From contig JAQVDK010000004.1 in the NCBI GenBank assembly GCA_028697835.1, positions 1 to 47,749 on the forward strand: a DNA stretch of 47,749 nt. Direction: 5' to 3'. This DNA is from Eubacteriales bacterium (GTDB taxonomy: Bacteria > Bacillota > Clostridia > Monoglobales > Firm-18). Shown here in pieces: positions 14,443 through 30,722 of the stretch. Each line of letters opens with the position of its first letter. Position 1 is the stretch's first letter. The translations under genes were made by a program, and so were the position numbers. A model generated the notes under the pieces. It made no database searches. It had not been told where the DNA came from and saw only the letters and a program-made list of their open reading frames with translations.

Positions 14443-14500
14443 AAGATGGAGTAATTATATGGAAAGCAGCATACAAGCATACAATACGGAGTGATGATTT

Positions 14501-24593: not shown

Positions 24594-24950
24594 ATGAAAA
24601 GAGTTATGGTTGTTGATGATGCGGCTTTTATGCGGGCTTCGCTTAAAATGCTGCTGGAGAGAAACGGCTATGAAGTCGTGGCGGAAGCCGAAAACGGCGA
24701 GGCGGCGGTTAAAAAATATCAGCAGCTTATGCCGGATATTGTAACAATGGACATTACCATGCCTAAAATGGATGGTATAAAGAGCATTCAAGCAATACGC
24801 GCAATTAACGAAAATGCCAATATTGTTGTTATATCGGCTTTGGGCAAGGAAGAGCTGGTCAGAGAAGCCATTGTTCTTGGCGCTAAAGGATTTATTTTAA
24901 AACCTATAAAAGAAGAACACCTTATAAATACCTTGAGCAAAATTAAATAA
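24594..24950 (+). CDS. cheY: Chemotaxis response regulator CheY
   Basis: Stand-alone receiver domain: VDDAAFMR, DIVTMDITMPKMDG, ISALGKEE, FILKPI. Confidence 0.9.
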   Translation: MKRVMVVDDAAFMRASLKMLLERNGYEVVAEAENGEAAVKKYQQLMPDIVTMDITMPKMDGIKSIQAIRAINENANIVVISALGKEELVREAIVLGAKGFILKPIKEEHLINTLSKIK

Positions 24951-24988
24951 TACATTAAAATTTACTACAAAAAGGTGATGTTGATTTT

Positions 24989-25036
24989 ATGCAGAATTTC
25001 AAAACATTTAAGAGGATAGACGTATGGAGATTGTGA
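24989..25036 (+). CDS. Candidate 15-codon upstream ORF overlapping cheD start
   Basis: AAAGGTGATG RBS-like sequence; ATG...TGA MQNFKTFKRIDVWRL overlaps cheD ATG at 25024 in another frame. Confidence 0.3.
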   Translation: MQNFKTFKRIDVWRL

Positions 25037-25494
25037 TAGATATTGGCGAATATGTTGTATCTCAAAGTGAGATTGATATACTGAAAATATATGGAATATC
25101 TTCTTGTATAGGATTGGTAATGCATTGTCCAAAGAAAAAAATTACCGGCGTTGCCCATATTCTTTTGCCAACATCCGCAATCAATCCGGAGCTTGGTAAA
25201 ATAAGCCCGGGATATTTCGCCGATACGGCGGTTCCCGCCATGCTTAGTAAAATGGCTTTAAAATACAATTGTCAAAAAAGAGATATTATAACTTCCATAT
25301 ATGGCGGCGCAGAGTCAAAAACGGAAAATGATGTTTTTAATGTGGGCAGCAGAAATATTGTTGCTGTAAAAAATAAAATATATGAATATGGATTGACATT
25401 AAAAACTGCCGATGTGGGAGGAAAAGTTGGGCGTACCCTTTATGTCCGCGCTGCTACGGGCGAGGTAACACTAAACAAACAAAATTTTTTGTAG
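25024..25494 (+). CDS. cheD: Chemoreceptor glutamine deamidase CheD
   Basis: GISSCIGLVMHCPKKKITGVAHILLP; IYGGAESK. Confidence 0.95.
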   Translation: MEIVIDIGEYVVSQSEIDILKIYGISSCIGLVMHCPKKKITGVAHILLPTSAINPELGKISPGYFADTAVPAMLSKMALKYNCQKRDIITSIYGGAESKTENDVFNVGSRNIVAVKNKIYEYGLTLKTADVGGKVGRTLYVRAATGEVTLNKQNFL

Positions 25495-25536
25495 TAGCAA
25501 AAAGAACACTATATATAATCAGAGGAGAAGTTATAT

Positions 25537-25995
25537 ATGAGCAATGAATACATAAACAACTTTATTAAATCTTTTAAAGCAGTTATGGAATCTTTTGGAA
25601 TAAGTGTTGAAAATAAAGAGATTACAGTTCGCAAATCGCCATATCCTGCAGATGCTACTATTGTAGTAATCGGTGTTACGGGCAAGCTGCACGGTCAAGC
25701 GATTATTAGCATGAACGAGTCAACAGCTTGTCAAATAGCTTCCACCATGATGGGAGGATTACCCGCCCAAATGGACGAAACCACAAAAAGTGCTATTGCA
25801 GAGCTGTCTAACATGATTGTTGGAAATGCAGCGACCTTGCTTTCACAGCAAGGGCTTATGATAGATATAACACCACCATCTGTGCTGACAGGCAATAACA
25901 TTTTAATATCTACGAATTTCACCAGCGTCAGTGTGCCTTTTGTAATGGACGGCGTTGAAGCTATTGAGTTTTCACTTAGCGCAAAGGAAATTTAA
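25537..25995 (+). CDS. cheX: CheX-like chemotaxis phosphatase
   Basis: SAIAELSNMIVGNAATLLSQQG...ITPP matches the [DS]x3Ex2N...P signature of the CheC/CheX family. Confidence 0.9.
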   Translation: MSNEYINNFIKSFKAVMESFGISVENKEITVRKSPYPADATIVVIGVTGKLHGQAIISMNESTACQIASTMMGGLPAQMDETTKSAIAELSNMIVGNAATLLSQQGLMIDITPPSVLTGNNILISTNFTSVSVPFVMDGVEAIEFSLSAKEI

Positions 25996-26046
25996 GAGCC
26001 GTTTATTCTGTTGCAAGCAGTAAAACATGAAAGGTGGGGTGACAAA

Positions 26047-28680
26047 GTGAAACATATCGTTAAAATACAAATATATGCACTTGTTTTATGCTTGTTTATC
26101 GGTATTTTCCCTTTTGAAGCTTTTGCTGCGGCAAATTTCGGGTATTATTCTTCGAATCCGAAGAATAATGCCAAGGATGTAAATCCAAATTTGGATGAGA
26201 TAACAATAACTTTTTCCTATGAAATTGACTGGAGTGGGCAAGGCTTTCAAGATGAAGTTATTTTAATGAGCAGGGAAGGCAAGGTTGTTCCAACCCGGGC
26301 GGACATTTCAGGGAAAAATCTTGTAGTTACGATAGATAAGGCTCTTGAATCTTACACTACCTACACTTTAAGCGTGCCTGCAGGAATACTCAAAAAGGCA
26401 GGTGGTGACTTGTCAACCGGCGTAAACACGCCTATAACGATTCAATTTACAACAAAGAAAACAACTTTTTCCTATTCAAGTACAACACCGAGGAATAGGG
26501 CAACCAATGTTTCGTACACAACTCAATATGTGACAATTTCATTTCATGACAATGTTTCTATAAGGGATGAAGCGCTTTTTGACACTATTGCCGTAAAAGA
26601 CCAACTAAATAAAATTGTAAGTGATTCCTGCGTTGCTGTAAATAATTACATCAGGCTTAAAGTTGCAGGAAATCTACAGCCCTATAAAACCTATATGGTG
26701 GAGATTCCTGAAGGGGCAATAAGCGCCCCCGGCAAAGGCTCGGATTCATCTTATGAATTTTATAATGAGCATATTAGCATTTGGTTTACCACCGAAACGG
26801 ACCGAACCGCCCTAACCTTGCTGAATTACTCGAGCGGAAGCAGGGTTATCGACCCGAATGCCACTATTGTGCTAAAATTCAACAAGCCTATTTATTTAGG
26901 CGAAGGCGCAAACCAAATATCCCTTAAAACTACAAACGGGCAGGAAGTTCCCATTTTGCTTACCATATCCCCCAGCGAAGACGAGCTTTTGGTAGAGCCT
27001 AAAAATATTTTAAGCAACAAGACCACCTATAAGCTTTACCTGCCCAGAAATGCGGTGCACGACTCGTCGCTGAATAATTTAAGAAGCAACTATACACTGA
27101 CTTATACCACAGGGATAAATTTGGACCCTCCTATGATGGTAACTTCCGACATTGTCGATGGCGACACGGATATTCCCATAGGAAAAGACGAAATATGCAT
27201 AACTTTCGACAAAAATATTAAATATTCGACGCGCTATGCCGATATAAAATTAGAGGGTTTAGGCAAAATTATAGGAATCAAAAAAACAATTTCGGACAAC
27301 GTGCTTAAAATTGGAATTAACAATGTTTTAGAGGCGGGAACAAATTACACACTCACAATTCCTGCCCAAAGCATAAAGGATTTGGAAAACAAGGATTTAA
27401 ACGAAGAAATTGTAATAAATTTCACCACCAAGTTTGCAAACCCCAACACCAAAACACAGGTGATTCAAAAAAGCACTCAAATCAGCGATGTGGAAATACC
27501 TGCAGGAACCGAGTTTGAGGATGTTATATATTATATTCTGCCCAAGCAGGTGGAAGTTACGCTGTCCGACAAAACAACCGAGTGGCTTGATGTAAAGTGG
27601 GATGAGACAGATTCTAAGTATGACCCTAAGAAAGTAGGTTCTTACACATTAAAGGGCAAAATCGAGGCAAGAGACTGGATTGTAAACACAAGGAACATCC
27701 AGGCAACTGCCAAGGTAACGGTTAAAGACATGAGCGTTCCCAATTGGCCTTCAAACGCCAGCATATCTTATGACAACAGGACACATAATTCCGCACGTCT
27801 TTTGTGGACCGAAGCCCAAGATGACTCTGCCATAAAAGAATATGTCATTGAAGCATTTGCAGCTTCTGCACCTCAAAGGACGGTTAGAGTCCCGGTCGCA
27901 AGGGCGGTTAGAATGTCCAACAATCCATCGGATAGAAACTATAACACACTATCTTACAATATTACGGGGCTGCAGCCCTCCACAAGATATAATATAAGGA
28001 TAACTGCAATAGATTCTCAAAACAAAATGACACAAACCTCTTTAACAACAAGCTTTACTACAACTGCCAGAGCAAGCACCTCCACATCCGGCAGCAAAAG
28101 CAGCCAAAACAGGTCAAATCGTCCGTCTGATTCCTTACCCGATGTTTATTTTGATGACTTGGTAGGTTATTCGTGGGCGGAGCCGGCTATATATGACCTT
28201 GTTGAAAGAAATGTGATAAATGGAACGTCCAGCAGGACCTTTTCACCCGGAGAAATGATAACAAGGGCAGACCTTGTGGTTATTTTGGTTCGTGCGCTTG
28301 ACTTAAGGGCTTCTATAATGCAAGAGCCTTTCAACGATGTTCCAAAATCTACGTATTATTATACAAGTGTTATGATAGCAAAAGAGCTTGGCATTATTAA
28401 AGGGGACTTGAAAGGTGATTTCTTCCCGGAACAGCCCATTACAAGGGAAGATATATTCGTTATTGTAAAGAGGGCCCTTGACGTAGCCGAAATTCCGTTG
28501 GCAAACCGTGGCTATGACGCCCAAAGGTATTACGATTATTATACTGTTGCGGATTACGCAAAGCAGGCGGTGGGCGATTTGGTTGCCGCCGGCTTGGTAA
28601 AGGGCAGCGGGAGCTTTTTATATCCTAAAAACTATGCAACCAGAGCGGAAGCTGCGGTGCTTGTGTCACAAATCTATTAA
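26047..28680 (+). CDS. Secreted S-layer-homology protein with multiple bacterial Ig-like (Big_5-like) repeats, a FN3-like domain and C-terminal SLH repeats
   Basis: Signal peptide IVKIQIYALVLCLFIGIFPFEAFA; repeated YSS.P.N.A.nV...ITF units; FN3-like SARLLWTEAQDDSAIKEYVIEAF; SLH motifs WAEPAIYDLVERNVINGTSSRTFSPGEMITRADLVVILVRAL and further copies to the C-terminus. GTG start with AAAGGTGGGGTG. Confidence 0.88.
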   Translation: MKHIVKIQIYALVLCLFIGIFPFEAFAAANFGYYSSNPKNNAKDVNPNLDEITITFSYEIDWSGQGFQDEVILMSREGKVVPTRADISGKNLVVTIDKALESYTTYTLSVPAGILKKAGGDLSTGVNTPITIQFTTKKTTFSYSSTTPRNRATNVSYTTQYVTISFHDNVSIRDEALFDTIAVKDQLNKIVSDSCVAVNNYIRLKVAGNLQPYKTYMVEIPEGAISAPGKGSDSSYEFYNEHISIWFTTETDRTALTLLNYSSGSRVIDPNATIVLKFNKPIYLGEGANQISLKTTNGQEVPILLTISPSEDELLVEPKNILSNKTTYKLYLPRNAVHDSSLNNLRSNYTLTYTTGINLDPPMMVTSDIVDGDTDIPIGKDEICITFDKNIKYSTRYADIKLEGLGKIIGIKKTISDNVLKIGINNVLEAGTNYTLTIPAQSIKDLENKDLNEEIVINFTTKFANPNTKTQVIQKSTQISDVEIPAGTEFEDVIYYILPKQVEVTLSDKTTEWLDVKWDETDSKYDPKKVGSYTLKGKIEARDWIVNTRNIQATAKVTVKDMSVPNWPSNASISYDNRTHNSARLLWTEAQDDSAIKEYVIEAFAASAPQRTVRVPVARAVRMSNNPSDRNYNTLSYNITGLQPSTRYNIRITAIDSQNKMTQTSLTTSFTTTARASTSTSGSKSSQNRSNRPSDSLPDVYFDDLVGYSWAEPAIYDLVERNVINGTSSRTFSPGEMITRADLVVILVRALDLRASIMQEPFNDVPKSTYYYTSVMIAKELGIIKGDLKGDFFPEQPITREDIFVIVKRALDVAEIPLANRGYDAQRYYDYYTVADYAKQAVGDLVAAGLVKGSGSFLYPKNYATRAEAAVLVSQIY

Positions 28681-28709
28681 TTTGGCAGTGCAATACAGGA
28701 GGGGATAAT

Positions 28710-29489
28710 TTGAAAAGGACAGCATATGTAGGTTTTATAATAGGGATGGTTTTTACAATATACGGAATATTTAACGGCGGCTCAATGATGAATTTTTACG
28801 ACGTCCCTTCTTTATACATTGTTTTTGGCGGCACTCTTGGTGCTGTTATTATGGGAAGCTCGCCCGGAAGCATCAAAAATTTTTTCAAGGTACTTAAAAT
28901 TGCCTTTTCTGCAAGAAAAGAAGATGGCACTGAAGTTATAACGAAAATAATTGAGCTGTCCTTAGTTGCAAGAAGGGATGGTTTGCTTGCATTGGAAAAT
29001 GAGTCGGAAGCATTAACCGATGAGTTTTTCAAAAAAGGAGTACAGCTTGCTGTTGACGGAATGGCCAGCGAAGTGATAAGAGATGTTATGTATGCGGAAA
29101 TAGATGCAATGGAGCAAAGACATAAAGATAACAGAAGTCTTTTTGACTTGGGGGCAAACATAGCCCCTGCATTTGGTATGATTGGAACGCTTATTGGGCT
29201 TATTAATATGCTTCAACACCTGACATCGCCCGAAGATATAGGCCCCCAAATGTCAATAGCCCTTGTCACAACTTTTTATGGCTCCATGCTTTCAAACCTT
29301 TTTTTCATTCCAATATCTAAAAAGCTAAAAGCTAAAACAGACGAAGAAATAAAGATAAGAGAAATTATAATAGAAGGCGTTATTTCTATTCAATCAGGCG
29401 AGAATACAAGATTTACGGAACAGAAGCTGATATCATATCTTACTCCTAAGGAAAGAGAAGCACTAAAAAGGAGAAAAGAAAATGAGTAG
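28710..29489 (+). CDS. motA: Flagellar stator protein MotA
   Basis: MotA/TolQ family: FGMIGTLIGLINMLQHL...ALVTTFYGSMLSNLFFIPISKKL. Confidence 0.96.
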   Translation: MKRTAYVGFIIGMVFTIYGIFNGGSMMNFYDVPSLYIVFGGTLGAVIMGSSPGSIKNFFKVLKIAFSARKEDGTEVITKIIELSLVARRDGLLALENESEALTDEFFKKGVQLAVDGMASEVIRDVMYAEIDAMEQRHKDNRSLFDLGANIAPAFGMIGTLIGLINMLQHLTSPEDIGPQMSIALVTTFYGSMLSNLFFIPISKKLKAKTDEEIKIREIIIEGVISIQSGENTRFTEQKLISYLTPKEREALKRRKENE

Positions 29490-30201
29490 AAGAAGACGTC
29501 GAGACGAAGAAACGTCCCAAGGAACCTGGCTTAATACGTACGCAGATTTGGTTACGCTTCTTATGTGCTTTTTTGTTCTTTTATTCTCTATGTCAACGAT
29601 TGATAACAGAAAGTTTAAAAAAATGCTTATGTCCTTTGCTTCTTCAAATGTTATAATCGAGGACCTGGCAAGCGATGGAGGTGTCCTTCCGGATGATGTG
29701 GGAATATTCGAGGGTGGCTACACTCGCGAGGAAGAGGAAAGATTTGAGCAAATATCCGAGGAGCTTAAGCAATTTGTAGAAGAAAACAATCTTCAGGGGA
29801 ATGTTTCGGTTTATAAAGAATATGAAGGTGTTTTGATTCGCTTTGATGATAGCATTTTATTTGACAAGGGCAGCGCACAATTAAAAGGAAACGCGCTAAA
29901 AATTCTAATGGATATGGCAGGTCTGCTCCACAGCTATGAAAGGGTTATAAGGGTTGAAGGGCATACGGATAACGACCCTATAAACACCGCAGTTTATCCG
30001 AGCAACTGGGAGCTTTCAACAGCAAGGGCGGTAAACGTTGTTAAATATCTTATATCGCAGGTGCCGGAAGAAATCAGGATAAGGCCGGAGTTTATGCAGG
30101 CCGCAGGATATGGAGAGTATTATCCTTTGGTGGAAAACACCACCGAAGAAAACAAGACTAAAAACAGAAGAATTGAAATCGTTATCCTAAAAAACAAATA
30201 A
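29482..30201 (+). CDS. motB: Flagellar stator protein MotB (OmpA-like)
   Basis: WLNTYADLVTLLMCFFVLLFSMS; VEGHTDNDPINTAVYPSNWELSTARAVNVVKYL. Confidence 0.96.
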   Translation: MSRRRRRDEETSQGTWLNTYADLVTLLMCFFVLLFSMSTIDNRKFKKMLMSFASSNVIIEDLASDGGVLPDDVGIFEGGYTREEEERFEQISEELKQFVEENNLQGNVSVYKEYEGVLIRFDDSILFDKGSAQLKGNALKILMDMAGLLHSYERVIRVEGHTDNDPINTAVYPSNWELSTARAVNVVKYLISQVPEEIRIRPEFMQAAGYGEYYPLVENTTEENKTKNRRIEIVILKNK

Positions 30202-30236
30202 TACAGGTCTTATATGCAGTTATAGGAGATTGAAAA

Positions 30237-30722
30237 ATGGGAGATATTTTGGAAAGTACTGCTTTTAATCCGGAAGAGACCGCAAACGACAGGTTTGCTG
30301 TGTTTGAGATTTATGGAAAATATTATGGCATTGATGAAAAAAACATGCAGGAGATTATAACAGAAGCAAAAATTACAAAGGTTCCCGACAATCCGGATTA
30401 TGTTTTGGGAATAGTTAATTTCCGCAGGGAAATAATAACCGTTATTGATTTGCATATGCTAACGGGAAAACATAAAGGCGTGGCACCTTCTTTAAGGTGT
30501 ATCATAGTTGCAAATGTAAACGGCTTGACGGTTGGATTTGCCGCAGACAATATAGTAAGTCTTGCTCGCATAGATAAAATCGAGCGCAAAAAGAAAGACA
30601 TGGCATTTGTTAAAGGAAGCGGCAAGATAAACGAAAAATCAGTGCTTTTGATTGATTGTGACAAGCTGGAGTTATGTAATTTGCAAAAAAATAATAACAA
30701 AAGAAAGAGTAGTGCACCATGA
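30237..30722 (+). CDS. cheW: Chemotaxis adaptor CheW
   Basis: VFEIYGKYYGIDEKNMQEIITEAKITKVPDNPDYVLGIVNFRREIITVIDL. Confidence 0.92.
   Translation: MGDILESTAFNPEETANDRFAVFEIYGKYYGIDEKNMQEIITEAKITKVPDNPDYVLGIVNFRREIITVIDLHMLTGKHKGVAPSLRCIIVANVNGLTVGFAADNIVSLARIDKIERKKKDMAFVKGSGKINEKSVLLIDCDKLELCNLQKNNNKRKSSAP

Follow-up and report, generated by a model that had tools for sequence, protein, structure and literature searches.

Results

The window, a contig of 47,749 nucleotides from a draft Eubacteriales genome (1.79 Mb in 116 contigs, 95% complete), carries its flagellar and chemotaxis genes as a single co-directional series that runs from about 3.1 to 46 kb. Between cheX and motA lies a gene encoding a surface protein with S-layer homology (SLH) repeats (Table 1). 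The gap from cheX to the SLH gene measures 51 bp and that from the SLH gene to motA 29 bp, all on the same strand, and neither gap holds a terminator-like site. The reading frame is free of stops up to 28680 from either a TTG at 26011 or a GTG at 26047. We prefer the GTG, because the ribosome-binding-like sequence AAAGGTGGGG lies 8-17 nt upstream of it and because the N-terminus that it yields has the form of a canonical signal peptide, in which a hydrophobic stretch and an apparent AFA cleavage site are recognized by eye.

Table 1. Features of the SLH gene and its surroundings, in positions of the window
Feature	Position	Strand	Remarks
flbD-fliL gap, 58 bp	14443..14500	+	usual site of motAB; here without motAB
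Rearranged block cheY-cheD-cheX-SLH-motA-motB-cheW	24594..30722	+	between flhG and cheB; absent from relatives compared
cheX, upstream neighbor	25537..25995	+	PF13690
Ribosome-binding-like sequence AAAGGTGGGG	26030..26039	+	read directly from the sequence
SLH-anchored multi-Ig surface protein gene	26047..28680	+	877 aa, GTG start; ORF and Pfam
Predicted signal peptide VKHIVKIQIYALVLCLFIGIFPFEAFA, followed by A	26047..26127	+	cleavage probably after AFA (residue 27); sequence inspection
Big_5 Ig-like domain 1	26149..26454	+	PF13205
Big_5 Ig-like domain 2	26461..26754	+	PF13205
Big_5 Ig-like domain 3	26830..27111	+	PF13205
Big_5 Ig-like domain 4	27127..27429	+	PF13205
Perfect sigma-28-type consensus TAAA-N15-GCCGATAT	27219..27245	+	inside the SLH ORF
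Big_4 Ig-like domain, residues 487-540	27505..27666	+	PF07532
FN3 domain, residues 568-663	27748..28035	+	PF00041
SLH repeat 1, ITRAD motif	28150..28275	+	PF00395; matches Sap structure 6bt4/3pyw
SLH repeat 2, ITRED motif	28327..28452	+	PF00395
SLH repeat 3, ATRAE motif	28525..28656	+	PF00395
motA, downstream neighbor	28710..29489	+	PF01618/PF20560
motB	29482..30201	+	PF13677/PF00691

Pfam matches and inspection give the following order from the N-terminus: a signal peptide, four Big_5 domains, one domain each of the Big_4 and FN3 families, a linker rich in Ser and Asn and, at the C-terminus, three SLH repeats. Every domain family of the 877-aa protein exceeds its Pfam gathering cut-off, with E-values of 4e-49 for the four Big_5 domains, 9e-28 for the three SLH repeats and 1e-9 for both fn3 and Big_4. 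TRAE-like motifs are kept in all three SLH repeats, and the SLH structure of B. anthracis Sap (6bt4/3pyw) aligns end to end with the SLH trimer at an E-value of about 1e-11. The ORF reading and the Pfam search agree with the initial annotation of this gene in coordinates, description and domains, the "further Ig-like region" listed there being Big_4; likewise, its picture of a secreted, SLH-anchored multi-Ig protein encoded co-directionally within a motility cluster is borne out by the ORF, the domains and the gaps. We infer from these features that the product is secreted and binds the cell wall. An AlphaFold2 model made from the single sequence, with a mean pLDDT of 33.5, was set aside.

Two genes of the genome match PS_pyruv_trans (PF04230) above the cut-off. 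They make SLH anchoring plausible, yet CsaB function is unproven, as the family has matches in E. coli and other controls too. Elsewhere in the same genome, a 744-aa frame (L110 1282-3516, contig C114) combines a pyruvyl-transferase domain of about 280 residues with a glycosyltransferase-like start; its product is possibly a fused wall-polymer enzyme.

Among 148 relatives, residues 1-688 have no full-length relative and the Ig-like part no orthologue; their best matches are short, local and of Ig type, at 26-38% identity. The strong matches of the whole protein in relatives fall on the SLH repeats, which are roughly 30-42% identical. Judged by these comparisons, the product is a lineage-specific surface protein. 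SLH proteins are numerous in this genome: 70 SLH domain matches fall in about 34 reading frames, counted by hand, and another frame that joins Big_5 to SLH lies elsewhere (C109). With about 1,700 genes placed at random, the probability that a 50-gene stretch includes one SLH gene or more is about 64%, a figure that ignores the ordered co-directional cluster and so gauges mere presence and is no test of operon membership.

How common is an SLH gene beside motA? The comparison covers 226 motA loci from 222 other genomes, sampled at the class and phylum level. The loci span 2.5-18 kb (median 12 kb), which takes in the immediate neighborhood of motA in all of them and several kilobases in most. 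The SLH profile, run on all reading frames of the 226 loci, recovers the gene of the window at 4e-60 and finds no SLH gene in any other locus within the 2.5-18 kb read around motA. The synteny search that had been proposed for this gene is therefore negative, the SLH-motA linkage appearing in no sampled genome but this one, whereas the premise that SLH proteins are no flagellar or chemotaxis components elsewhere holds in 226 loci of 226. A recent insertion present in one strain only had also been considered; the arrangement does occur here alone, but neither codon usage nor flanking repeats give a sign of insertion. Since the linkage never recurs, the suggested tie of the protein to the stator or to the site of flagellar exit is not borne out, adjacency being all that speaks for it. 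We found no paper on SLH genes within motA operons.

Searching the GTDB 220 collection with motA yielded just three loci, all distant, and a sister genome sharing the cluster was thus not found there. In the order, one of 50 sampled genomes has MotA (G037), with the ordinary arrangement flbD-motA-motB-fliL, so that there is no close motile relative by which to date the arrangement seen here. The group is largely non-motile, and this genome stands out within it as a motile exception. MotA occurs in none of the seven sampled members of its family.

The place of motAB itself is unusual. In 180 of the other loci motA stands beside flgE/flbD and/or fliL/fliM-type genes and in 46 its surroundings are unrelated; in none of the 226 does it stand beside che genes. 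The window's flbD and fliL are separated by a short and empty gap, which indicates that motAB has moved. Its new site lies directly after the SLH gene, and the adjacency of the two thus stems from a rearrangement and not from a simple insertion into an old operon. Other genes of the block are displaced as well. cheD lies 12-18 kb downstream of motA in 39 of the 42 relatives that have both on one contig, and here 3.7 kb upstream; as for cheX, the relatives with this gene that were compared by hand carry it on a different contig or far away from motA. The block from cheY to cheW is a mosaic produced by rearrangement and peculiar to this genome. In many relatives cheY comes after fliN. CheD (25024-25494) is much closer to the second CheD copies of two-copy genomes (G331, G311, G137, G333) than to their more usual copies, and may be a CheD of another subtype that the cluster has recruited. 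MotAB (28710-30201) forms a long branch of 0.73 substitutions per site, apart from the MotAB of G037, in a tree of 38 sequences that is uninformative on placement.

In composition (GC 41.4%, codon fit 0.080) the SLH gene is within the range of its flagellar neighbors and therefore bears no foreign mark. Flanking repeats or transposon scars were not found around it, apart from 16-nt AT-rich matches. Given that the gene is embedded in the chemotaxis and stator part of the cluster, it is probably co-transcribed with motAB in one long transcript. Promoter-like matches overlap both gap regions (26039-26066 and 28682-28709), and a promoter of its own at either gap thus has to be reckoned with; such matches, gap or no gap, number 25 against a shuffled expectation of 16.1 +/- 3.7, a mild excess only.

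Discussion

The gene described here encodes a protein of a kind already known, an SLH-anchored Ig-type surface protein; what sets it apart is its unusual and non-recurring placement, of which the only notable point is the location within a tight co-directional cluster. The SLH-anchored Ig/FN3 proteins of Clostridia and Bacilli, with their Sap-like anchoring, share with it the signal peptide, the array of Ig-like domains and the three SLH repeats. They differ in that the motA loci examined are free of SLH genes, and in that the N-terminal 688 residues find only short local Ig matches.

Two proteins of other bacteria serve as precedents for a surface protein with a part in movement. Paenibacillus alvei that has lost SlhA continues to make flagella, but its flagella-driven motility is gone: it no longer swarms and does not move at all at 0.4% agar (PMC3776848). 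Like the protein of the window, SlhA is secreted and has three C-terminal SLH repeats, by which it is anchored to a pyruvylated wall polymer and peptidoglycan; unlike it, SlhA has 1335 aa and a CBM6 domain, and a Big_5/FN3 architecture is not reported (PMC3776848). Our Pfam search finds no CBM6 in the SLH protein of the window. The SLH motifs read SRGE/VRQD/LRGD in SlhA and TRAD/TRED/TRAE here, and outside the SLH repeats the two proteins are compared by description only. The slhA gene has its own promoter and is located outside the flagellar cluster, with the wall-polymer locus on one side and the S-layer gene on the other (PMC3776848). In Paenibacillus sp. NAIST15-1, movement on hard agar requires CmoA, a protein that only some species possess; its gene closes the flagellar operon yvyC-fliD-fliS-x-cmoA, and cotranscription is suggested by transcript size and by induction parallel to the flagellar genes (PMC5072692). 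Both CmoA, with eight IPT/TIG domains, and the protein of the window are lineage-restricted, secreted and of multi-Ig type. On the other hand, CmoA has a vWFA domain, SLH repeats are not reported for it, and it is released around the cells and not anchored to the wall through SLH repeats (PMC5072692). No vWFA or TIG domain appears in the Pfam search of the window protein, and cmoA adjoins fliD/fliS whereas the SLH gene adjoins cheX and motA. CmoA is an analogy, not a homologue.

We favor, narrowly and with a probability of about 0.42, the view that the gene encodes a surface protein, lineage-specific and anchored by its SLH repeats, that motile cells produce and that would act in surface movement or attachment. 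This view is preferred because CmoA and SlhA act at the cell surface and not in the motor; a role of the protein in motility is speculative and is drawn from this analogy. Its three SLH repeats would dock it non-covalently on peptidoglycan and on the pyruvylated secondary wall polymer, and the Ig and FN3 domains, six in all, would extend outward from the wall as a stalk. If it shares a long transcript with motAB, it would be displayed while the cell builds its flagella. Its likeliest job at the surface of a motile cell would be contact with a surface, with mucus or with neighboring cells, or else lubrication or smoothing of the envelope, and we would not expect it to be a flagellar part. Against this view stand the linkage, unconserved in the 226 motA loci, the abundance of SLH frames (about 34), an Ig-like part with no orthologue in 148 relatives and the weak promoter-like matches at both gaps.

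Almost equally probable is an account in which the SLH gene was caught beside motAB during the rearrangement and, though maybe co-transcribed, serves adhesion, glycan binding or a wall coat unrelated to motility. With so many SLH frames in 1.79 Mb, the chance presence of one in a 50-gene stretch is unsurprising; the linkage is seen in this genome only, the surrounding block is itself mosaic, and a second Big_5 and SLH combination exists. The tight co-directional site with its two short gaps, the lack of polar disruption and the matched composition nevertheless suggest a position that is tolerated or useful. It is improbable that the protein is a true flagellar accessory, whether by strengthening or lining the wall and S-layer at the point of flagellar exit or by keeping MotB fixed in the wall. 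That motAB is directly adjacent, having relocated there, and that the SLH repeats and the OmpA domain of MotB are both wall-binding modules would fit it, but no comparable gene stands near motA in the 222 other genomes, SLH-rich ones such as G070 included, and MotA and MotB are full-length Pfam matches with no extra module. We hold it a little less probable still that the protein is a subunit of the S-layer, main or minor, or a general coat protein of the wall, with expression that is simply tied to the cluster. The match to the S-layer protein Sap agrees with such a role; main S-layer genes, however, usually stand alone behind strong promoters, whereas this gene lies mid-cluster, and many other SLH frames compete for the part. 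Slightly below this again we place the idea that the lineage evolved a wall-anchored Ig-stalk partner of the MotAB stator or the flagellum, beside which motAB moved as the two came to be made and used jointly. Least probable by a clear step is an artefact of assembly or binning that misjoined the SLH gene into the flagellar contig: the genome is a draft of many contigs, but the gene is internal to one of 47.7 kb with GC and codon fit alike on both sides, and the 16-nt AT-rich matches are the only repeats that could invite a misjoin.

What follows differs between these accounts. As a motility factor, the protein would be the second independent lineage-specific Ig-type surface protein in a flagellar operon, after CmoA, and would connect flagellar regulation in Clostridia with SLH surface proteins. 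As a partner beside which motAB moved, it would be an accessory to the flagellar motor on the wall side, in a Gram-positive cell. Should the gene be a bystander, the case calls for caution, as position in a flagellar cluster of an SLH-rich genome is then weak evidence of function.

Two further observations concern the cluster. The SLH gene contains, about 1.5 kb upstream of motA, a perfect sigma-28-type consensus that is the sole such match in the window. This may be an internal promoter toward motAB, or it may be due to chance, since 7 of 100 shuffles also contain a perfect consensus. If it is real, motAB could be made while the full SLH protein is not, and the argument from co-expression would be weaker in one direction. 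Flagellin is preceded by a similar sequence, TAAA-N16-TACGATAT, recognized by eye. Just upstream of the flagellar cluster, 1778-2959 encodes a 393-aa protein whose only match, to DUF6240, is below threshold.
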